Source: Aridibacter famidurans (GTDB taxonomy: Bacteria > Acidobacteriota > Blastocatellia > Pyrinomonadales > Pyrinomonadaceae). Taken from it: a stretch of 64,000 nucleotides of DNA. The stretch covers positions 1-64,000 of the forward strand of contig JAGFIQ010000002.1 of the NCBI GenBank assembly GCA_024103495.1, given 5' to 3'. The position numbers were made by a program, and so were the translations under genes. Below the pieces are notes generated by a model, which did not search any database, was not told the DNA's origin, and was given only the letters and a program-made list of their open reading frames with translations. Positions 6,574-64,000 of the stretch are shown here, one piece after another (within the stretch, counting starts at the first letter, position 1; the number at the start of each line of letters is the position of its first letter).

Positions 6574-7482
6574 TTACAGGCCCCGCAGCCAGTCGACGAT
6601 CACGCCCGCCAGTTCCTCGCCCTTGTCTTCCTGGATGAAGTGCCCCGCGTTCTCGATCGTCGTATGCGGCTGGCCGAGCGCTCCGGGCACGCGCTTCTGA
6701 AAGACCTTGTCCGCTCCCCGCATAATGGGATCGCCGTCGGCGAAAGCGGTCAGGAACGGCTTGTCCCATTTCGCGAGCCGTTCCCAGGCGCGGCGGTTGT
6801 TCGCCGATTCGACGTTGTCCGGGGAGATGGGGACAAGCGTCGGAAAGATCCTCGCCGCCGCCTTGTACGAATTGTCGGGAAAGGGAGCCTCGTATGCCTT
6901 CCGGACCTCTTTCGCGACCTTCGAGGAACAGCCCATCTGTATGATCCTGCCGACCGGGAACACCGGCGTCGCCTGCGAGAACGCGAGCCAGACCTTGAAA
7001 GCCTTCGGCGTCTTCTCGTCGCCCGTGGGAAGGAAGGTGTTCGCCGCCACGATCCTCGAGAACCTGTCTTCCATTTCGACCGCGAGGCGCAGTCCGAGCA
7101 ATCCTCCCCAGTCCTGGCAGACGAGCGCGATGTCTTTAAGATCGAGCTTTTCGATGAATGCCCTCAGCCATTCCAGGTGCGAGCGGTAAGTGTAAGCTTC
7201 CTTCTCTTTGAACTTGTCAGACCTTCCGAAACCGATCAGATCCGGAGCGATCGCCCGGAAACCCGCGTCGGCCAATATCGGGATCATTTTTCGATAGAGG
7301 TAACTCCAGGTCGGCTCGCCGTGCAGCACAAGCACCGTCGGAGCGTCCCGACCACCCTCGTCGACGTAATGCATACGGAGCCCGCCGATGTCGGCGTAGT
7401 TCGGCTCGAACGGGAAACCGGGAAGGTCCCGGAACCGCTCGTCGGGCGTTCGGAGGATCTCTCTTTCACCTTTGTTCATCAC
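6574..7482 (-). CDS. Haloalkane dehalogenase, DhlA-like (HLD-I)
   Basis: An alpha/beta hydrolase of 302 residues that strongly resembles Xanthobacter DhlA, which hydrolyses carbon-halogen bonds to give alcohol and halide. The oxyanion region reads LHGEPTWSYLYRKM (about 53-66). The nucleophile is D124 in VCQDWGG, with the halide-binding W125 beside it, at the same residue numbers as in DhlA. PDLIGFGRSDK follows the expected strand, the third acid is probably D251 (FADGDPI), and the catalytic His is H281 in ENAGHFIQED. It is cytoplasmic, with no signal peptide. Its ATG overlaps the stop of the P450 gene (ATGA, four bases), so the two are translationally coupled. Substrates of many HLD-I enzymes are unknown; a halogenated natural metabolite is as likely as a pollutant. 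Confidence 0.92.
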   Translation of the reverse strand: MMNKGEREILRTPDERFRDLPGFPFEPNYADIGGLRMHYVDEGGRDAPTVLVLHGEPTWSYLYRKMIPILADAGFRAIAPDLIGFGRSDKFKEKEAYTYRSHLEWLRAFIEKLDLKDIALVCQDWGGLLGLRLAVEMEDRFSRIVAANTFLPTGDEKTPKAFKVWLAFSQATPVFPVGRIIQMGCSSKVAKEVRKAYEAPFPDNSYKAAARIFPTLVPISPDNVESANNRRAWERLAKWDKPFLTAFADGDPIMRGADKVFQKRVPGALGQPHTTIENAGHFIQEDKGEELAGVIVDWLRGL

Positions 7483-10700: not shown

Positions 10701-10702
10701 GT

Positions 10703-10910
10703 CCCGTTTAGAGCGGACCTTTGGGCTGCACGAGGTAACGCGGACTTCAGTTTGCGCCGCGCGGACGCGCGGAACTCCGTGCCTCCACGCCTCCCGTTTA
10801 GAGCAGCGCTTTGCGCTGCACGAGGTACCGCGAACTTCAGTTTGCGCCGCGCGCTAGCGCGGACTTCCGTGCCTCCACGCTTCCCGTTTAGAGCAGCGCT
10901 TCGCGCTGCA
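10703..10910 (+). repeat. 90-bp tandem repeat, two copies and a partial third
   Basis: Copies begin with CCCGTTTAGAGC at 10703, 10793 and 10883, exactly 90 bases apart; the third breaks off after about 28 bases. Each unit contains a GCAGCGCTTTGCGCTGC-type palindrome and a TTTGCGCCGCGCG palindrome region. The central part recurs inverted at 24112-24143 and the GCTCTAAACGGG end recurs at 42290-42307. No gene is present. Confidence 0.8.
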
Positions 10911-17039: not shown

Positions 17040-17130
17040 ATACTGCGCAGGTGTTCGCTTCGCTCAATGCGGGCGAGGACGCCCGCGGTCCGGCGCCCGC
17101 GCTCCGGCAACTGCGCTCCGGACGAGCCGT
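17040..17130. repeat. GC-rich palindromes of the CGCTTCGCTCAA...GCGCTCC type
   Basis: TTCGCTTCGCTCAATGCGGGC is followed by GGACGCCCGC and then CGCCCGCGCTCCGG. The same parts (CGCTTCGCTCAA, a GC-rich hairpin, GCGCTCCA) occur inside hemW at 25733-25772 and, in part, at 24056-24086. Confidence 0.5.
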
Positions 17131-24706: not shown

Positions 24707-25933
24707 TCAAACAAACACCCCGAACACCTCGTTCGAGTAAAGCCTCCCTCGGTCGGTCAGGCGCAGAGTTGATTCCGAAATCTCGATCAGTCCGATCTCC
24801 CGAAACTCTCCCAGCTCCTCGCCGAACTCGCTCAGTAGCTCCGAACCGAAACGTTCCCGGTAGTCCGCCAGGTCAAGCCCTTTGTTCAAACGGAGTTTGA
24901 GAAACGCGAATTCCGCTTTCAGTTGCTTCTCCGGCAGATCATCGATCTCGACGACAGGCGAATCGCCGCACTCCACCGATCTCACATAGGCGAGGGTGTC
25001 TCTGGCATTGACCCATCTTTTGGAGCCGTAGAACGAATGCGCCGAAACGCCGAAGCCGATCACGGGGTCGAGCTCCCAGTACTTCAGGTTGTGTCTCGAT
25101 TCGCGGCCGGTTCTTGAGAAGTTCGAGATCTCGTACTGTTCATAGCCCGCCGCGTCGAGCCTTTCCAGCATTGCCTCGTACATCTCCGCCGCAAGGTCCT
25201 CGTCGGGGAGCGGTTGGCGTCCCGACCGGACCTGTTCCGCGAGCGGCGTTCCCTCGTGGATCTCCAGAAGGTAGAGAGAAACGTGTTCGGGCGACATCGC
25301 GACCGCTTCCTCGAGATTCGCCTTCCATCCCTCGATCGTCTGGTGCGGAAGGCCGCCGATCAGATCGAAACTTATGTTGTCGAACCCTGCCGTGCGAAGA
25401 AGCTCGTAAGTATTCCGAGCGTCGTCGGCGTCGTGGCCTCGAGCGAGGAGCTTCAGCGAGCGGTCGTCAAAGGTCTGTACGCCGAAACTCGCGCGGTTCA
25501 CGCCGAGTGCGCGGAAATCCTTTAGTTTCTCGAGTGTGACCGTCGCGGGATTCATCTCGACGGTGATCTCGGCATCTTCAGCGATCTCGAACCGTTCTCG
25601 AACGGCTTCCAGGATTCTTTCCAGCTGATCGGGACTGAGAAGGGAAGGCGTTCCGCCGCCGAAGTAGATGGTGTCGGAAGCGAGTGATGAGTGATGAGTG
25701 ATGAGTGAGGGGTGGCCCGGACTGGAGCGCAGGCGGCCCGCCTGCGTTGAGCGAAGCGAATCGTCCTCGCGGGTGGGGACAAGCCCCGCCCCTACATTAG
25801 CTCCGGTCTCCTTCAGCAGCGCGCTCACATACCTCTCCACCGCCTCGTCGTTGCGGTAGACATCGGTCGCGAAGTCGCAGTACGAGCATCGGGACTTGCA
25901 GAAAGGGATGTGGATGTAAACTCCCGCGGGCAT
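24707..25933 (-). CDS. hemW: Radical SAM haem chaperone HemW, with an in-frame repeat insert
   Basis: A HemW-family protein (often misnamed oxygen-independent coproporphyrinogen oxidase) of 408 residues, thought to deliver haem to membrane enzymes. The radical SAM motif is CKSRCSYC (C12, C16, C19). YFGGGTPSLL, VEMNPATV, NRASFGVQTF and SFDLIGGLPHQT are the expected later motifs, and the HemW C-terminal domain is present. Between LLKE and DTIYFGGG, where relatives have about ten residues, there are about 40 extra (45-84) encoded by intergenic-type repeat DNA. The frame stays open, so the protein may still work with a surface loop. There are no other haem genes beside it. Confidence 0.93.
   Translation of the reverse strand: MPAGVYIHIPFCKSRCSYCDFATDVYRNDEAVERYVSALLKETGANVGAGLVPTREDDSLRSTQAGRLRSSPGHPSLITHHSSLASDTIYFGGGTPSLLSPDQLERILEAVRERFEIAEDAEITVEMNPATVTLEKLKDFRALGVNRASFGVQTFDDRSLKLLARGHDADDARNTYELLRTAGFDNISFDLIGGLPHQTIEGWKANLEEAVAMSPEHVSLYLLEIHEGTPLAEQVRSGRQPLPDEDLAAEMYEAMLERLDAAGYEQYEISNFSRTGRESRHNLKYWELDPVIGFGVSAHSFYGSKRWVNARDTLAYVRSVECGDSPVVEIDDLPEKQLKAEFAFLKLRLNKGLDLADYRERFGSELLSEFGEELGEFREIGLIEISESTLRLTDRGRLYSNEVFGVFV
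25682..25800 (-). repeat. Repeat DNA inserted in frame within hemW
   Basis: On the plus strand: GAGTGAT heptamers (25684-25710), a GGAGCGCAGGCGGCCCGCC hairpin followed by TGCGTTGAGCGAAGCG, then GTGGGGACAAGCCCCGCCCC and TACATTAG. Each part recurs in non-coding DNA of this window: GGGGACAAGCCTCGCCCC then TACATT at 42304, and the GC-rich hairpin parts at 17045 and 24060. The insert keeps the hemW frame. Confidence 0.8.
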
Positions 25934-26207: not shown

Positions 26208-28511
26208 TCAAGCCTCAAGCAAAGATTCAAGCGCGGACTTCCACTTCTTCTCGAGACCCGAGACCGGGGCGCTCACGGCTTCCGAACCGTCGATCGAGAT
26301 CGACAGATCGTCGCTTTCCACTTTTCCGATCACCTCGAATGGGCATCCCAGCCCTTCGGCTATCGAGGCGACACGGTCCGCGTTCTCAGGCGAGAAGCTG
26401 ATCACGATCCTAGAGGGCGATTCGGAGAAGAGGACCGCTTCCGGATCGAGCCCGTTCGATGAAAGCTCGAGCACCGCTCCGTCCGGGGCGTTGTTCAGCG
26501 AAGAAAAACAGCATTCGGCGACCGCGATCGCCAGGCCTCCGTCCGAGCAGTCGTGCGCCGAGGCTAATAGCATTTCGTCGACAAGTTTCAGGCAGGTCTC
26601 CTGAACGGTCTTTTCAAGCTCAAGATCGAGCGACGGCACGTTCCCGATCTCGATCAGTTCGTTCGTGGAGATCCCGAGCACCGCCTGCGAGTACTCGCTG
26701 ACCGAAAGGTCGTCGTTCGTTGTGCCGAGAAGAGCGATGACATCGCCCTTCTTTTTGAAGCCCTGCGTGACCAGCTTCCTCACATCCTCGAGCAGACCGA
26801 CCATTCCGATTGTAGGCGTCGGAAGCACGCCGTCCCCGTCCGTCTCGTTGTAAAAGGAAACGTTCCCGGAGATGACAGGTGTGTCGAACGTCTCGCACGC
26901 CTCCTTCATTCCGTCGATCGTCTGGGAGAAGGCCCACATTATCTTCGGCCTTTCTGGCGATGCGAAGTTCAGGCAGTTCGTTACCGCGATCGGCCGGGCG
27001 CCGACGCATACGTTGTTACGCGCCGCCTCGGAGACTGTCAGCTTGGCGCCTTCGAGCGGATCGACCGCCGAATAAAGCCCGTTGCCGTCGAGGCACATCG
27101 AGATCGCGCGCCTCGTTTCCTTCACTCGCACGACTGCGGCGTCCGCTCCCGGAAGGATCGCCGTGTTCGTCCTGACCATGTGGTCGTACTGCTCGTAAAC
27201 CCAGTGCTTGGAACAGATGTCGGGAGATGTGATGAGAGTCTCGAGCACCTTAAGGAGATTCCGCGATCCGTGTCCGGCTACTTCGGCCCGGACCTTCCAC
27301 TTCGCGGCGCGCTCATCGCGGCTAGCGGAAGCGTACGCCGGCGCTTCCATAGGTCGTTCGTACCTCGGAGCCTCGTCTGTAAGCTTGTCCACCGGAAGAT
27401 CGGCCATCAGCTCGCCGTGATGGAAGACCTTCAGGCGGTTCCCTTCGACGACCTTTCCGATCACGACCGCGTCGAGGTCCCATTTGTTGAAGATCTCGAC
27501 AAGTTCTCGTTCGCGACCGGCTTTCGCGACGATCAGCATACGCTCCTGCGATTCGCTGAGCAGCATCTCGTACGCCGTCATTCCGGTTTCGCGCTGAGGC
27601 ACGAGCGTCAGATCGAGCTCGAGGCCGGTTCCCGCTCGGTCGGCCATCTCGACCGAAGAACTCGTCAATCCCGCCGCGCCCATATCCTGGATGCCCTCGA
27701 TCGCGCCGGAGCGCATCGCCTCGAGACACGCTTCAAGAAGCAGCTTCTCCAGGAACGGATCGCCGACCTGAACGGTCGGGCGTTTCTCGAGAGCCTCTTC
27801 GTCGAACTCTGCGGACGCCATCGTAGCGCCGTGAATTCCGTCGCGGCCCGTCTTCGCTCCTACGTAAAGAACCGGGTTGCCGATCCCCGAGGCCTTCCCG
27901 AAGAAGATCTGGTCCTTGCGAACGAGTCCGAGCGCGAACGCGTTCACAAGCGGGTTCAGGTTGTAAGCCTCGTCGAAGACGACCTCGCCGCCGACCGTCG
28001 GAACGCCGAAGCAGTTTCCGTAAAACCCGATTCCTTCGACGACGCCTTTCAGGATCGACTTGTTGCGGTTCGCGATCTTCCTTGTCGTCGATCCATTCTC
28101 GTTCAGCGTCAGAGGCCCGAACCGAAGCGAGTTCATCGCCGCGATCGGCCTTGCGCCCATCGTGAACACGTCGCGGAGGATGCCTCCGACTCCCGTCGCG
28201 GCTCCCTGGAACGGTTCTATGAAGCTCGGGTGGTTGTGCGATTCGACCTTGAACGCGACGCACCAGTCGTCGCCTATGTCCACAACTCCGGCGTTCTCGC
28301 CCGGCGGAACGATCACGCGCTCGCCGGTCGTAGGAAGTCGCCTCAGGTGCACGCGGGATGATTTGTACGAGCAGTGCTCGGACCACATTACGCTAAAGAT
28401 GCCGAGTTCGGTGAAGTTCGGCTCGCGTCCTAGGATCTCTATGATCTTCCCGTACTCTTCCGGAGTTACGTGCTGTTCAATAAGTTCTGGAGTTATGGCG
28501 GGGCTCGTCAT
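26208..28511 (-). CDS. purL: Phosphoribosylformylglycinamidine synthase subunit
   Basis: The small-type PurL (767 residues), which with PurQ and PurS converts FGAR to FGAM in purine synthesis using ATP and glutamine-derived ammonia. Family motifs: [11 protein letters not shown] near the N-terminus, [17 protein letters not shown] (the signature His/Asn/His stretch), [15 protein letters not shown], and a second AIRS-like half with [11 protein letters not shown] and [13 protein letters not shown] start at 28511 ([10 protein letters not shown]), where the conserved N-terminus begins; the longer frame to 28589 adds residues encoded next to repeat DNA. purQ and purS are not in the window. Confidence 0.95.
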
Positions 28512-42081: not shown

Positions 42082-42112
42082 ACAGTGTTCATCGATCAAT
42101 GCGCGGCTCTAG

Positions 42113-42301
42113 ACGGATCGCGCCGGACCGCGGGCGTCCCCGCCCGCAAATCTGCAGGCCATAGCGCTGTTCTTAACGGATCGCGCCGAACCGCGGGCTT
42201 CCCCGCCCGCAAATCTGCAGCCCATAGGGCTGCTCTAAACGGATCGGGCTGGACCGCGGGCGTCCCCGCCCGCATATCGGCAGCGCAAAGCGCTGCTCTA
42301 A
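42113..42301 (+). repeat. 63-bp tandem repeat, three exact-length copies
   Basis: Copies start ACGGATCG at 42113, 42176 and 42239, and the next unit breaks off as ACGGGG at 42302. Each unit contains GACCGCGGGCGTCCCCGCCCGC and ends GCTCTAA or similar. The last copy carries GCAGCGCAAAGCGCTGC and GCTCTAAACGGG, shared (inverted) with the 90-bp repeat at 10703. Sixty-three is a multiple of three and of seven, so the array stays open as a spurious peptide. It is followed by GGGGACAAGCCTCGCCCC, also found inside hemW. Confidence 0.85.
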
Positions 42302-42334
42302 ACGGGGACAAGCCTCGCCCCTACATTCGGCCTC

Positions 42335-52043: not shown

Positions 52044-52086
52044 GAGTAGTTTCTCTCGCGTGAGCTTGTTGTTGAAAGGGGATCTT

Positions 52087-53006
52087 AACCACGGAGTACA
52101 CGGAGGTCTTCACGGAGGACTCAAGGTAAGAGTACTTTGCGAAACTTTGCGCCTTGGCGTCTTTGCGGGAGGATTCTTCCCCGGCGTGTGCTGTTCATTA
52201 GGGAAGCTATAACCACAGAGCACACAGGGGTTTTCACGGAGGTCACGGAGAATGTTCTTTGCGGAAGTTTGCGCCTTGGCGTCTTTGCGGGAGCATTCTT
52301 CCCCGGCGTGTGCAGTTCCTTAGGGAAGTTATAACCACAGAGCACACAGGGGTTTTCACGGAGGACACATAATATGAGCACTTTGCGAAACTCAGCGCCT
52401 TGGCGCCTTAGCGAGAAGTTCGCGGTTTTAAAAGAGCAAGCTAACCACAGAGCGCACGGAGGTACACACGGAGAACACAAGGAAACTCAGTGCCCTCTGT
52501 GAAAAGCTCCGTGTACTTTGTGGTTAGCTCTTTTTATCTGCAGCGAAGGCGCGGAACCCCGCGCGCCGGCGTCTCTTCGTCGATCTCCGTAATTCGAACG
52601 GGGAATTCAACCACGAAGGTCACGGAGATCTTCACGAAGGAGCACAGGGAGAAGAAAGGCCTAATGCCGTGACTACCAATCGATCGATCGAAGTTTCCTT
52701 TGCGTCCTTTGCGAATACCTCCGCGCCCTTTGCGTTAGAGTCTTCTGCTTCGGTTTTCCATCGCCAGCCAGGTTATAACCGCAAAGGACGCAAAGGTTTA
52801 CGCAAAGTGCGCCAAGAGACGCCAAGGCGCAAAGTTCCGCAAAGTGAACTCTCCGCGACCTCCGTGAGAGACTCTGTGTGCTCTGTGGTTCAATCTTCTT
52901 TAAGGAACTGCACACGCAGGGAAGAGTGCTCCCGCAAAGTTCCACAAGGTACATTCTCTGTTACCTCCGTGAAAACCTCCGTGCGCTCTGTGGTTAAGTT
53001 CTTCTC
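52087..53006. repeat. Large array of AACCACAGAG-type long repeats
   Basis: Units begin AACCACRGAG at 52087, 52211, 52333 and 52443 (spacings 124, 122 and 110) and share GTTTTCACGGAGG, CTTTGCGGAA, GCGCCTTGGCGTCTTTGCGG and TTCTTCCCCGGCGTGTGC. From about 52777 the same motifs appear with AACCGCAAAGGACGC. The region closes with inverted ends, CTCTGTGGTT at 52880 and 52988. Shorter relatives sit at 48817-49060. No gene was found in this 0.9 kb. Confidence 0.85.
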
Positions 53007-59505: not shown

Positions 59506-59545
59506 TGTTCTTGGGGTGAGGTGAGCTCGGGGTTCGATCATCCAA

Positions 59546-59672
59546 TCGCGTAGCGACCCACCGATCGGCGACGCCGCTACGCGGCTGGGAATTTGCAAAT
59601 GTCCCAGAATGCCAATCTTCCCACCTACCGTGCGCTGAAGCGCACGGCTAGGTTACAGCGTCGCTACGCGAC
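59546..59672. repeat. Palindromes of the transposase-associated family
   Basis: TCGCGTAGCGA (59546-59556), GCCGCTACGCGGC (59573-59585), CCGTGCGCTGAAGCGCACGG (59628-59647) and GTCGCTACGCGAC (59660-59672) occur in the same order and with similar spacing as in the 258-bp units at 61445-62070. They read through as a 78-codon open frame that is not a credible gene. Confidence 0.75.
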
Positions 59673-59739
59673 CGAAGAGGAAATTCACGGAAAGCAATTA
59701 GATTTTGAGGCTCACCGCTTCTGTGCCAACGACGCAATG

Positions 59740-59770
59740 AAAAAACGGCGCCTGGTCTTCACCGGACGCC
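59740..59770 (-). terminator. Intrinsic terminator of the 59796-60650 gene
   Basis: On the minus strand GGCGTCCGG pairs with CCAGGCGCC (one G-T pair, one mismatch) and is followed by G and six Ts, 26 bases after the stop. Confidence 0.65.
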
Positions 59771-59795
59771 GCCTGATTGAACTTCCCCTTGCCCG

Positions 59796-60650
59796 TTATT
59801 TCTCCCTGCAGTATCTGCCCGATTTCTGAAGACAATCGAACTCCTGAAAGAACTCGGCCTCGGCGTCGATCGGCTTGCTGCCGTCACCTGTGAACCTGAG
59901 AAAAGCGTCGGGCGAGATGGCGCCGAATCTCGGATCTTCGATCGTCCGGGCGATGATGAACTGCGCCGCGCCGGGCTCCGAAATGCTTCTCACACGCTGG
60001 GTGATCAGTTCGTAGCGGGTTAGCGCGCCGATCTCGGACGGGGTCCTGATGATCGGCAGACCGTCGAGCGATTTCCCGTTGTTTCCGAGAAGTTCCGCGA
60101 GCATTCTCTGGCCTTCTTTGGTGTAGGCTTTTCGCGTGTACTCTACCTCGACAGCCGTTCCAAGGCTAAGCCGATTCTTGTCGGGATTGTCTCCCGTGCG
60201 GTCGATCAACGCTGACTGGCGTTCCTGGTATCTGAATTTGGCGCTCGGGAAGAAGTAGACGGGAACGTTGCTCGCTGCTTTGATCGCTTCCTCGCCTGAC
60301 GCGTTCCGAGTGAATCCGGAACGGTCGACGTATCCGTAGAAGACCCAGAATATCTGCTTCCCGTTCTCGTCGTAGCCGGTGCGAGTCTCGAGGATCCGCA
60401 CGCCGCGGAAGACGTCGCTGTCGATGTAATCGAAGACCGAATACCGATCGAAACCCGACCTCCTGTCGATGATCTGTGCATAATCGACACCGTGGTCACC
60501 ATAGTACTTGTCGGCAAAATCGAACGGCCTCTTCTCGTCGAGGATCCTGTCGTTCGACTTCTGCGCGGGAACGGTTGAAGAAAGGGTCACGAGCGACCCT
60601 GCCAGAAGGGCAAACGCGGCGATTGTGTTTATGATCTTCTTTATCCTCAT
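59796..60650 (-). CDS. Secreted protein of unknown function
   Basis: A 284-residue exported protein with a signal peptide of about 29 residues (FALLAGSLVTLSSTVPAQ). The mature chain is rich in Tyr and Arg, with FADKYYGDHGVDYAQII, IFWVFYGYVDRSGFTRN, LSLGTAVEVEYTRKAYTKEGQ and a C-terminal Cys pair (FDCLQKSGRYC). No family is recognised. It is monocistronic, with a terminator, and is bounded on both sides by repeats of the transposase-associated palindrome family. Confidence 0.75.
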   Translation of the reverse strand: MRIKKIINTIAAFALLAGSLVTLSSTVPAQKSNDRILDEKRPFDFADKYYGDHGVDYAQIIDRRSGFDRYSVFDYIDSDVFRGVRILETRTGYDENGKQIFWVFYGYVDRSGFTRNASGEEAIKAASNVPVYFFPSAKFRYQERQSALIDRTGDNPDKNRLSLGTAVEVEYTRKAYTKEGQRMLAELLGNNGKSLDGLPIIRTPSEIGALTRYELITQRVRSISEPGAAQFIIARTIEDPRFGAISPDAFLRFTGDGSKPIDAEAEFFQEFDCLQKSGRYCREK

Positions 60651-60780
60651 TGCTTTTTAACTCCTTATGTCGATCTCCTCAGTAAATCTGTGCCCTTCTC
60701 TCTGTTGGTACAGTGCGGTGAGGCGAGGGAAAAAGACATGAGGTGCGGAGAGCGTAAGAAAAAAGACACGAGGAGTTTCA

Positions 60781-60896
60781 TCGCGCTCCATTTCGTTGCG
60801 ACCGTGGCGACCGTTGCGTTGGAAATGAACGCGAAGGTCGCCAAGATCGCAAAGGCCGTGAGTGCTCGCGACCCGTTTGTTTAGTCGCGTAGCGAC
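60781..60896. repeat. AACGCGAAGG-type repeat and a GTCGCGTAGCGAC palindrome
   Basis: GTTGCGACCGTGGCGACCG then TTGCG and, inverted, AACGCGAAGGTCGCCAAG then ATCGC form arms as at 15034-15168, but with the order swapped. GTCGCGTAGCGAC (60884-60896) belongs to the transposase-associated palindromes. Confidence 0.6.
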
Positions 60897-60985
60897 GTCG
60901 GCAAGACATTGAAGCCGGGGGAAATATCTGCTTCAATATCCACACTCTCACAGGAGCTTCCCCTCACTGGAAGCGTTGACAATAT

Positions 60986-61441
60986 ATGCCAAATACTTAC
61001 TCCTCACAGTTCTTTCACATTGTTTTCAGCACAAAAAATCGGAGACGCCTGATAACCGAAGATATCGAGAATGAGATTTGGAGGTTTATAGGCGGAAGTG
61101 CGAAGCGGTTCGGCGCGACTCCCATCCGCGTAGGCGGCTGCGAAGACCACGTCCATCTCTTGCTGATGTCGCGACCGTCGGTCCTTGTAAGCAGATTGGT
61201 CCAGCAGATCAAGGGAGAATCGTCTCGCTGGATCAGCAAGAAGTTCTCAAACAAGAAAACGTTTGGGTGGCAGGACGGCTACGCCAGCTTTACCGTCAGC
61301 AGATCGGCGGTTGACTCGGTCGAGGCCTATATCAGGAACCAGCGGAAGCATCATTCGCGAATGGGTTACGAAGACGAATACAGGAAGCTGCTCGAGCTAC
61401 ACGACGTGGATATCGTGGATGAGAAATACCTGTTCGGCTGA
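60986..61441 (+). CDS. IS200/IS605-type Y1 transposase (REP-associated-like)
   Basis: A HUH-endonuclease transposase of 151 residues, complete in length for TnpA of IS200/IS605. The metal-binding HUH motif is H55-V-H57 in GGCEDHVHLLLMSRP. The nucleophile is probably Y115 in VEAYIRNQRKH, with Q119 four residues on as in IS200 TnpA; classical REP-associated transposases usually have YIxxNP here. FHIVFSTKNRRRLI and FGWQDGYASFTVS also fit. It nicks and joins single-stranded DNA at hairpins. No TnpB/accessory gene is present. Its stop codon is immediately followed by the composite palindrome array. Confidence 0.9.
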   Translation: MPNTYSSQFFHIVFSTKNRRRLITEDIENEIWRFIGGSAKRFGATPIRVGGCEDHVHLLLMSRPSVLVSRLVQQIKGESSRWISKKFSNKKTFGWQDGYASFTVSRSAVDSVEAYIRNQRKHHSRMGYEDEYRKLLELHDVDIVDEKYLFG

Positions 61442-62075
61442 TCGGGACGCCGCAACGCGGCTGGGGATTCAAAACGTTCGCGACGGGTTTCGTTGTGCCA
61501 GCATCCCGTGCGCTGAAGCGCACGGCTAAGTTACGGCGTCCCTACGGGACGGGATTCGACTCATCGCGTTTCGGATTATCTCGCTGCGATCGGATTCGCA
61601 GATCAAAATGGTCATCGCGTAGCGATTGTGTATCTTAGCCGTGGCCTTCAGGCCACGGTGCGAGCGACGCGTTTGTCCAGTCGCGTAGCGACGTTCCGTT
61701 CGGCGACGCCGCTACGCGGCTGGGAATTCGAATCGTCCCGGACGGGTATCGTGTCCGTCGTTCCGTGCGCTGAAGCGCACGGCTAAGTTACAGCGTCCCT
61801 ACGGGACGGGATTCGACTCATCGCGTTTCGGATTATCTCGCTGCGATCGGATTCGTAGATCAAAATGGTTATCGCGTGGCGATGTTGTACCTTAGCCGTG
61901 GCCTTCAGGCCACGGTAGGCCGACCCGCGTTCGTCTAGTCGCGTAGCGACGTTCCGTTCGGCGACGCCGCGACGCGGCTGGAAATTCACGTTTCTCACGG
62001 CGTATCGTTTCTTTGCATTCCGTGGCCTGAAGGCCACGGCTAAGTTACGGCGTCCCTACGGGACGGACTGCGAAC
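61442..62075. repeat. 258-bp composite palindrome, about 2.4 tandem copies
   Basis: The complete unit is 61681-61938; a partial copy precedes it (61445-61680) and another follows (61939-62070). Each unit strings together GTCGCGTAGCGAC, GCCGCTACGCGGC, CCGTGCGCTGAAGCGCACGG, CGTCCCTACGGGACG, CATCGCGTTTCGG, and CCGTGGCCTTCAGGCCACGG. In the last copy the third hairpin is replaced by CCGTGGCCTGAAGGCCACGG. All hairpin loops are TGAA/TTCA or TA-centred. No gene is present. Confidence 0.85.
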
Positions 62076-62145: not shown

Positions 62146-64000
62146 ATGAAACGCATATCCGTTCTGCTTGCTATCCTCTTTCTCACGACTGTTCTCTTCG
62201 CCATCGACGATCCGGCGCGGTGGGTCAATCCGTTCGTCGGGACCGGAGGCCACGGGCATACGTTCCCCGGCGCGACGATGCCGTTCGGGATGGTCCAGCT
62301 CTCGCCCGACACGAGGATCGACAACTGGGACGGAAGCTCCGGATACCATTACTCCGACGACATCATCTACGGCTTCTCGCACACGCACCTCAGCGGAACC
62401 GGCATCCCCGATTACTGCGACATCCTCTTCGCTCCTTACATCAGCGACGAGTATTTCTGGGAAGCGAGTCCGGAAGACACGAAGAAGGGATTCGCGTCGA
62501 AGTTCTCGCACGACAACGAGAAAGCGGAGCCGGGTTACTACTCGGTCAAGCTCGACGACGAGAACATCCTCGCCGAGATGACGGCGACCGAGCGCGTCGG
62601 ATTCCACCGTTACACGTTTCCGAATGGGACCAAGGAAGCGAAGATGGCGCTCGATCTCAAGTGGCGGGACGAGGTTCTCGAGTCGGAGATCTGGGTGGTT
62701 GGAGACAGTCGGGTCGAAGGATTTCGTCGATCAAGTTCGTGGGCAAAGGATCAGATCGTCTTTTTCTCGGCAGAATTCTCGGAATCCTTCTATTCCCACG
62801 CCGTCCGTGGCGAGGGGGGCAAGCTGGAAAACAGGAATGACGCGGCAGGTACGATGAGGTCTAGTTACAAGGGGAAGGATCTGAAGGCCAACTTCCAGTT
62901 CCCGAGGCGCAACGACAAACCTCTCCTCCTCAAGGTCGGCATCTCCGCCGTCAGTATCGAGGGAGCGCGGAAAAACCTCGAGGCCGAGGTCCCGCACTGG
63001 GATTTCGACAAGGTCAGAAAGGACGCGCGTGCGGCGTGGAACAAGGAGCTATCGAAGATCGAGGTCTCCGGCGGGACCGACGCCGAGATGACGAATTTCT
63101 ACACCGCGCTCTACCACACGATGATCGCCCCCAACGTCTACAACGACGTCGACGGAAACTACCGGGGGATGGACCGGAAGATCCACAACATCGCTGATCA
63201 GTTCAAAGTTCAAAGCTCAAGGTCCAATGCCAAGTTCAAAGTTCAAAGTTCAAGGTTCAAAGAAAGTGAGTCGGATGATAAGCGTACGTCTTTGAACTTT
63301 GAACCTGGATCCTTGAACAGTTCCAGGAACTTGGAACCTGGAACTTTGAACAGTTCTTTGAACCTTGAACCTGGAACTTTGAACTCAAGACAGTACACAG
63401 TGTTTTCGTTGTGGGACACCTTCCGCGCGACGCACCCTCTCTACACGATCATCGACGAGAAGCGCACCGTCGAGTTCATCAACACCTTCATACGGATGTA
63501 CGAGCAGGGAGGCAAGCTTCCGGTGTGGGAGCTCGCCGGGAACGAGACCGACACGATGATCGGGTATCACGCAGTCTCGGTGATCGCGGACGCGATGGCG
63601 AAGGGCATCGAGGGATTCGATTACGAGAAGGCGTACGAGGCGGCGAGGCATTCGTCGGAACTCGACATAGAGGGACTTACAGCGTTCCGCAGCCGTGGTT
63701 TCATCTCGATGGAAGACGAGCAGGAGTCGGTCTCAAGGACGCTCGAGTATGCGTACAACAGTTATTGCCTGTACGTGATCGCAAGGGAAGTAAATGAACG
63801 CAAGAATCTACTTGTCGACCAAGAACTGGACGATATTGAAAGCGCTCGTCCGAGGCTGAAAGGTCCGGTTTCAGAAGAAGCCGAGATTCACCTCCGCCGC
63901 GCCCAGTTTTACAAGAACCTCTTCGACAAGCAGACCGGCTTTATGCGGCCGAAGCAGAACGGCAACTGGATCTCGCCGTTCTCGCCAAACGAGGTCACCT
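62146..64000 (+). CDS. GH92 family alpha-mannosidase (3' end beyond window), with in-frame repeat insert
   Basis: The first 618 residues of a glycoside hydrolase family 92 enzyme, a calcium-dependent exo-alpha-mannosidase family. The signal peptide is 1-20. The N-terminal domain starts DDPARWVNPFVGTGGHGHTF, then MPFGMVQLSPDTR, and SHTHLSGTGIPDYCDILF; the catalytic (alpha/alpha)6 part begins near FYTALYHTMIAPNVYNDVDG and continues FSLWDTFRATHPLYTII and KLPVWELAGNETDTMIGYHA. Between HNIADQ and RQYTVFSLWD about 63 residues (352-415) are encoded by heptamer repeats; the frame is kept. AGGAAAT precedes the ATG. The TonB receptor at the other end of the window is a type used for glycans, but no link is shown. 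Confidence 0.92.
   Translation, partial: MKRISVLLAILFLTTVLFAIDDPARWVNPFVGTGGHGHTFPGATMPFGMVQLSPDTRIDNWDGSSGYHYSDDIIYGFSHTHLSGTGIPDYCDILFAPYISDEYFWEASPEDTKKGFASKFSHDNEKAEPGYYSVKLDDENILAEMTATERVGFHRYTFPNGTKEAKMALDLKWRDEVLESEIWVVGDSRVEGFRRSSSWAKDQIVFFSAEFSESFYSHAVRGEGGKLENRNDAAGTMRSSYKGKDLKANFQFPRRNDKPLLLKVGISAVSIEGARKNLEAEVPHWDFDKVRKDARAAWNKELSKIEVSGGTDAEMTNFYTALYHTMIAPNVYNDVDGNYRGMDRKIHNIADQFKVQSSRSNAKFKVQSSRFKESESDDKRTSLNFEPGSLNSSRNLEPGTLNSSLNLEPGTLNSRQYTVFSLWDTFRATHPLYTIIDEKRTVEFINTFIRMYEQGGKLPVWELAGNETDTMIGYHAVSVIADAMAKGIEGFDYEKAYEAARHSSELDIEGLTAFRSRGFISMEDEQESVSRTLEYAYNSYCLYVIAREVNERKNLLVDQELDDIESARPRLKGPVSEEAEIHLRRAQFYKNLFDKQTGFMRPKQNGNWISPFSPNEVT
63200..63390 (+). repeat. Heptamer inverted repeat inside the GH92 gene
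   Basis: The left half has GTTCAAA-type units (AAGTTCAAAGTTCAAAG, AGGTTCAAAG). The right half is their inverse (CTTTGAACTTTGAAC, AACTTGGAACCTGGAACTTTG). About 25 unique bases lie between (AGTGAGTCGGATGATAAGCG). The units are those of the intergenic GTTCCAG/GTTCAAA arrays at 28607 and 35443. Confidence 0.9.

Follow-up and report, generated by a model that had tools for sequence, protein, structure and literature searches.

Background

Cyanobacterial STRR heptamers are tandem 7-base units scattered in the spacers of many related genomes. The heptamers described here resemble them in period and in their location in spacers; they differ in phylum and in their units, and are found here inside coding sequence as well.

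REPs of the GTAG superfamily are defined by a GTAG tag followed by a stem of 5-13 bp and a loop of 2-20 bases (PMC3733652). Such REPs are found at about the same recB site in two Xanthomonas species, and flexible linkers or loops have been suggested as REP-tolerant sites (PMC3733652). The REP that we describe shares with these (PMC3733652) the GTAG end, a covarying stem, mostly intergenic dispersal, a RAYT between inverted copies and some intragenic copies. It differs in being a new sequence in an acidobacterial host, in being combined with heptamers and another palindrome as a module of a mosaic, and in that the same loop is refilled here across seven genera.

Rickettsia palindromic elements are about 150 bp long, carry a conserved peptide and lie in genes in nearly half of the cases (PMC10969869). 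As with these, palindromes occur here in frame in unrelated enzymes and are apparently compatible with folding. Unlike them, the units here measure 25-41 bp or form heptamer arrays, the REPs are intergenic in about 90% of cases, and the elements do not fall into the Rickettsia class.

The principle of in-frame REPs is known (PMC3733652, PMC10969869); new are the element, the host group and the repeated filling of one loop. Literature searches gave no report of HemW inserts or of repeats in this bacterial family. Bacterial proteins with in-frame repeats tend to be isolated oddities; here they form a replicated natural experiment, informative on which sites of a protein admit random peptide and on how spacer DNA becomes protein with the gene left unbroken. 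There is also a warning in this: in these bacteria, repeat-derived segments are part of the annotated and aligned sequences of HemW and alanyl-tRNA synthetase (AlaRS).

Data and methods

The window is the whole 64-kb stretch of DNA that was analysed. Its genome, G000, is an assembly of 188 contigs; G000-G006 are members of one genus, and G001 consists of 3 contigs. Rates of repeats were taken from 648 kb of G000 and 400 kb of G001, with genes assigned by a simple home-made gene caller based on codon usage.

Recurrence was measured by a lag-7 test, where an exact run of at least 8 in the HemW loop was compared with windows of the same length from the rest of the same HemW genes. This test was prompted by the HemW of G000, a choice that does not bear on the other genera. 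A k-mer comparison of the loops of 20 relatives with 20 kb of each relative's own genome was set aside because it was too noisy and two of its rows held the HemW locus itself.

Results and discussion

The hemW gene

The reading frame of hemW is open over the full length of 408 codons with no internal stop. The product scores 277.7 bits against TIGR00539 (cut-off 205.4), which places it in HemW, and both the Radical_SAM and the HemN_C domains are matched. The closest named HemW records are from Acidobacteriota, including a Pyrinomonadaceae MAG, which makes Pyrinomonadaceae the probable family of these genomes. The radical-SAM cysteines C12, C16 and C19 are invariant in the family alignment, and dN/dS outside the loop is 0.07-0.14 among G000, G001 and G004, where dS is near-saturated. 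Judged from sequence, the enzyme around the insert is intact and under purifying selection (dN/dS about 0.1).

In a genome of 188 contigs, an artefact of assembly or binning might be suspected, as might a pseudogene in decay. The same kind of insert is found in the three-contig G001 and in others, the frame is open throughout, and this gene is the only HemW match of its genome, with kept cysteines and low dN/dS; such an origin is hardly credible.

Table 1. Positions of the features discussed; those without a genome handle are numbered along the window.
Feature	Position	Strand	Basis or remark
hemW, coding for a radical-SAM heme chaperone (408 aa) with the insert	24707..25933	minus	TIGR00539, Radical_SAM, HemN_C
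Expanded loop, residues ~44-84, predicted disordered	25682..25804	minus	family alignment and AlphaFold
Heptamer array (GAGTGAT)x3.9	25682..25708	+	lag-7 scan; open only on coding (minus) strand
41-bp palindromic repeat GACTGGAGCGCAGGCGGCCCGCCTGCGTTGAGCGAAGCGAA, hairpin 25728-25746	25720..25760	+	genome matches and folding
25-bp GTAG-tagged REP, GTAGGGGCGGGGCTTGTCCCCACCC, lacking one stem pair of the consensus	25771..25795	minus	copies in G000/G004, stem covariation
Repeat inserts of AAGTTCA and AACCTGG-type heptamers in GH92 gene	63232-63253, 63294-63385	+	repeat scan
Candidate cognate RAYT (154-aa Y1 transposase)	G004:C70:6639-7100		inverted REPs at 6579(+) and 7161(-), within about 100 bases
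Homologue (48%) of the G004:C70 RAYT	G000:C101		REPs at 27010(+) and 28843(-), about 0.6-0.8 kb away
Split AlaRS halves, L383 and L384	G038:C3:735324-736151 and C3:610891-612771	- and +	

Composition of the insert

The excess DNA in hemW is a mosaic of three classes of multi-copy repeats of G000 (Table 1), and the in-frame repeat insert that a preliminary description had proposed is therefore real. In a whole-genome search, the 132-bp insert stretch gave 52 matches to its parts in G000, 41 in G001 and 59 in G004, and these sort into the three modules. A few matches join heptamer, palindrome and tail as in hemW, one example being G000:C5:36163 (84%).

The GAGTGAT heptamer is confined to HemW within the window and recurs elsewhere in the genome. 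The double heptamer has 3 matches where 0.01 are expected, far above chance. The palindromic repeat has about 30 further matches in G000 at 83-97% and is present in G001 and G004 too; a perfect 19-mer from it is found at 4 places, and its hairpin folds at -11.1 kcal/mol (z -2.7). The preliminary description had placed all of the motifs also in non-coding DNA at 17045, 24060 and 42304. Relatives of two modules are indeed there, namely a REP-like piece (23/24) at 42304, the tail TTGAGCGAAGCGAA adjoining a related palindrome at 17054, and a related palindrome at about 24057, while the heptamer is at none of them.

Loop length and predicted structure

The stretch from YCDF to GGGTP has 69 residues here and 35-37 in most of the 71 family genomes compared, which show a tail of lengths up to 82. 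Across many phyla, 80 HemW genes mostly have loops of 33-43, and no conserved counterpart of the extra segment is seen in HemW from distant taxa. The excess is thus about 32-34 residues, somewhat less than the 40 or so first given.

In the AlphaFold model (mean pLDDT 92, pTM 0.89) the loop lies between helix 1 (residues 29-44) and strand 2 (85-93). Blocks of pLDDT 42-55 cover residues 51-80, most of the insert stretch, and the insert is accordingly predicted to be a disordered loop within an otherwise confident fold, in line with the surface loop near the first strand that had been expected. The best PDB match to the model is HemN 1OLT (TM 0.80), where the equivalent loop has about 14 residues. 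In barrels of this kind, the active site is at one face and the turns from helix to strand are at the other.

The same loop in relatives

The loop is a clear case of one site that has been filled repeatedly, each time with other repeats, across the family. A lag-7 run of at least 8 was found in 15 of 71 HemW loops and in 1 of 1,040 windows elsewhere in the same genes. With at least 11 as the threshold, 13 of the 71 HemW genes carry a run, compared with 10 among the 1,095 genes sampled, and HemW itself accounts for three of these 10. The 15 heptamer-bearing loops come from seven genera and their units differ (CAGTCCT, ATTTCAG, and GTAATTA with GGTTTTC are examples). In a phylogeny built without the loop, the presence of heptamers needs 11 changes, of which at least 6 (gains or losses) are forced by strong branches. 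The recurrence extends to a HemW of 43% identity from a named Acidobacteria MAG (L180; by sequence not a member of the sampled family), where the loop holds four to five tandem 33-base units; the palindrome of this unit has 51 copies in its own genome (control 0).

Within the genus of the window, G000, G001 and G004 all carry inserts, whereas the loop is short in G002, G003, G005 and G006. A useful extension of HemW, recruited and kept for partner binding or regulation, would account for its retention in some form in three related species. Yet sequence, length and repeat type all differ among the three, four congeners do without it and the insert has no fold in the model, and we regard a function of this sort as very improbable.

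A stronger competitor is that the heptamer part arose in place, with short runs in a hypervariable loop expanded by replication slippage and no insertion involved. Heptamer arrays do dominate the recurrent cases, their units vary from genome to genome, and some short loops (that of L008, for example) resemble small starts. Slippage cannot make a dispersed 25-bp GTAG REP or a 41-bp palindrome, however, and the heptamers of the L019 loop have more than 40 matches in their own genome. Slippage under coding constraint would favour periods of 3n, whereas in the HemW loops no period other than 7 is raised except its harmonic 14. Growth in place is accordingly possible for the heptamers but doubtful.

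The extra segment in HemW is very probably intergenic repeat DNA which entered hemW in frame and was tolerated there. The GTAG hairpins would be dispersed by a RAYT (HUH tyrosine) transposase, the palindromic repeats may spread by some similar route, and the heptamer arrays would lengthen and shorten through slippage. Insertions would land everywhere, with those in coding sequence purged unless they keep the frame, bring no stop and hit a tolerant spot. A disordered peptide would be harmless in the HemW loop, which sits on the side of the barrel remote from the active site, and a gain of function for HemW is not required. The content of the insert would turn over fast, so that close relatives differ. 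Insertion rather than replacement is inferred from other species, because no empty site was seen within a species.

Repeats between genes and inside genes

The motifs are strongly enriched between genes, as the preliminary description had presumed. Heptamer arrays occur per 100 kb at 32 in spacers and 0.8 in genes of G000, and at 75 and 2.1 in G001, a density roughly 40-fold lower inside genes. Period 7 dominates the spacer arrays (38 in the G000 sample, 53 in that of G001), and other periods are nearly absent apart from some arrays of period 9. Words of 13 bases common to at least three spacers were found in genes 138 and 113 times, compared with 51 and 17 for the reversed-word controls. Arrays of longer units are also seen in spacers of the window, with 90-, 63- and 122-base units at 10702-10910, 42103-42305 and 52086-52416, respectively, each holding several palindromes.

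Clusters of repeats in gene interiors are few. The 648 kb of G000 hold two such genes, HemW and a GH92 enzyme, both in the window, and the 400 kb of G001 hold four, coding for an AcrB-type pump, HemW, AlaRS and a glycosyltransferase. The second repeat-bearing enzyme claimed for the window thus exists, and the count of two in 64 kb is right; as a rate it misleads and is a matter of luck, one gene per 100-300 kb being the better estimate. The low barrier to insertion that had been suggested holds for a few tolerant loops, but not generally, given two genes in 648 kb and the rarity of arrays in genes. In the GH92 glycosidase gene (62146-63999, +), which extends past the end of the window, the repeats lie within the catalytic part.

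The GTAG REP, strand and frame

The consensus of the REP is GTAGGGGC[G/A]GGGCTTGTCCC[C/T]GCCC. It consists of GTAG, an 8-bp stem and a CTTGT loop, and folds at -11.4 kcal/mol, within the definition of the superfamily. There are 28 copies in G000, 31 in G004, 1 in G001 and none in the four other genus members (reversed-pattern control 0). The flanks of the copies are unrelated to each other, and 417 of 448 stem pairs are formed, above the shuffled maximum of 401, which indicates covariation. Intergenic copies make up 26 of 28 in G000 and 22 of the 25 read in G004 (about 90%).

The remaining copies, 2 in G000 and 3 in G004, are in HemW and AlaRS of both genomes and in a GH15 enzyme of G004. All five are on the strand of the gene and in the frame GTA GGG GCG GGG CTT GTC CCC, read as VGAGLVP. 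Pure tolerance does not predict this shared strand and frame; the HemW and AlaRS pairs may each be inherited. Elements that target genes in a frame suited to translation, like the Rickettsia palindromic elements, would explain it, and the GAGTGAT unit, too, is closed by a stop on its own strand and stays open on the one used by hemW. Against such targeting, about nine in ten REP copies are intergenic, the REP contains a TAG stop in one frame, and the five cases come down to three independent genes or fewer. Taken one strand at a time, heptamer units are free of stops about as often as their shuffled versions (open fraction 0.665 compared with 0.677 over 91 spacer arrays). We consider gene targeting improbable.

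None of the 35 distinct heptamer units from the sampled spacers of G000 and G001 is closed on both strands, where about 5 are expected by shuffling (P 0.002) and about 2.8 from real spacer 7-mers (P 0.057). The idea that the elements avoid stop codons is therefore at most weakly supported, and unproven.

The AlaRS linker

The linker of AlaRS between DTGxGLER and ADH is a second site of in-frame repeats beside the HemW loop. It has 45 residues in most of the family. In G000 (L278) it contains the REP and two GGTPSVSEG units, in G001 (L277) a GCTCACC heptamer, and in G004 (L279) the REP, whose frame is the same as in HemW. A VPRASATG repeat was also seen in the linker of G003 (L281).

In genus g9, AlaRS is encoded by two genes, split at the linker of the catalytic domain, and in several genomes the halves are far apart on one long contig. 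A split AlaRS is also seen in G038 (Table 1). The halves are adjacent in G019 (L373), G029 (L374) and G011 (L378). The gap contains a BrnT toxin together with another small gene in the first of these, a nucleotidyltransferase and other ORFs in the second, and a Y1 transposase and another ORF in the third. The HemW loop between helix 1 and strand 2 and the AlaRS linker between the catalytic and editing parts could be seen as landing pads, which receive repeats beyond what tolerance gives, in a preferred strand and frame, and at which genes also break. We hold this to be unlikely. As to repeats as a possible cause of the splits, the spacers of the adjacent split genes contain other genes and no heptamers. 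AlaRS of G079 is fused, and a tree of the C-terminal part is too weak to separate fission from re-fusion. A literature search on split AlaRS found only the split genes of Nanoarchaea.

Transposases

A candidate cognate RAYT lies between inverted REPs in G004, and G000 has a homologue with REPs at a larger distance (Table 1). The REP-poor G001 gave weak matches only. Association with a RAYT is as described for the GTAG superfamily. It suggests a pairing of this REP with the putative enzyme but does not prove it, because G003 and G005 have RAYT homologues and no copies of this REP.

The Y1 transposase class has 16 matches in G000. One of these genes, of IS200/RAYT type, is in the window at 60986..61441 (+; PF01797, 103 bits); it is of the same class as the REP-flanking enzyme and a different copy. 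It lies amid several copies of other palindromic repeats (59523-62073), with a spacing of about 257 bases at 61501-62073, and this region is likely a second REP/RAYT unit.
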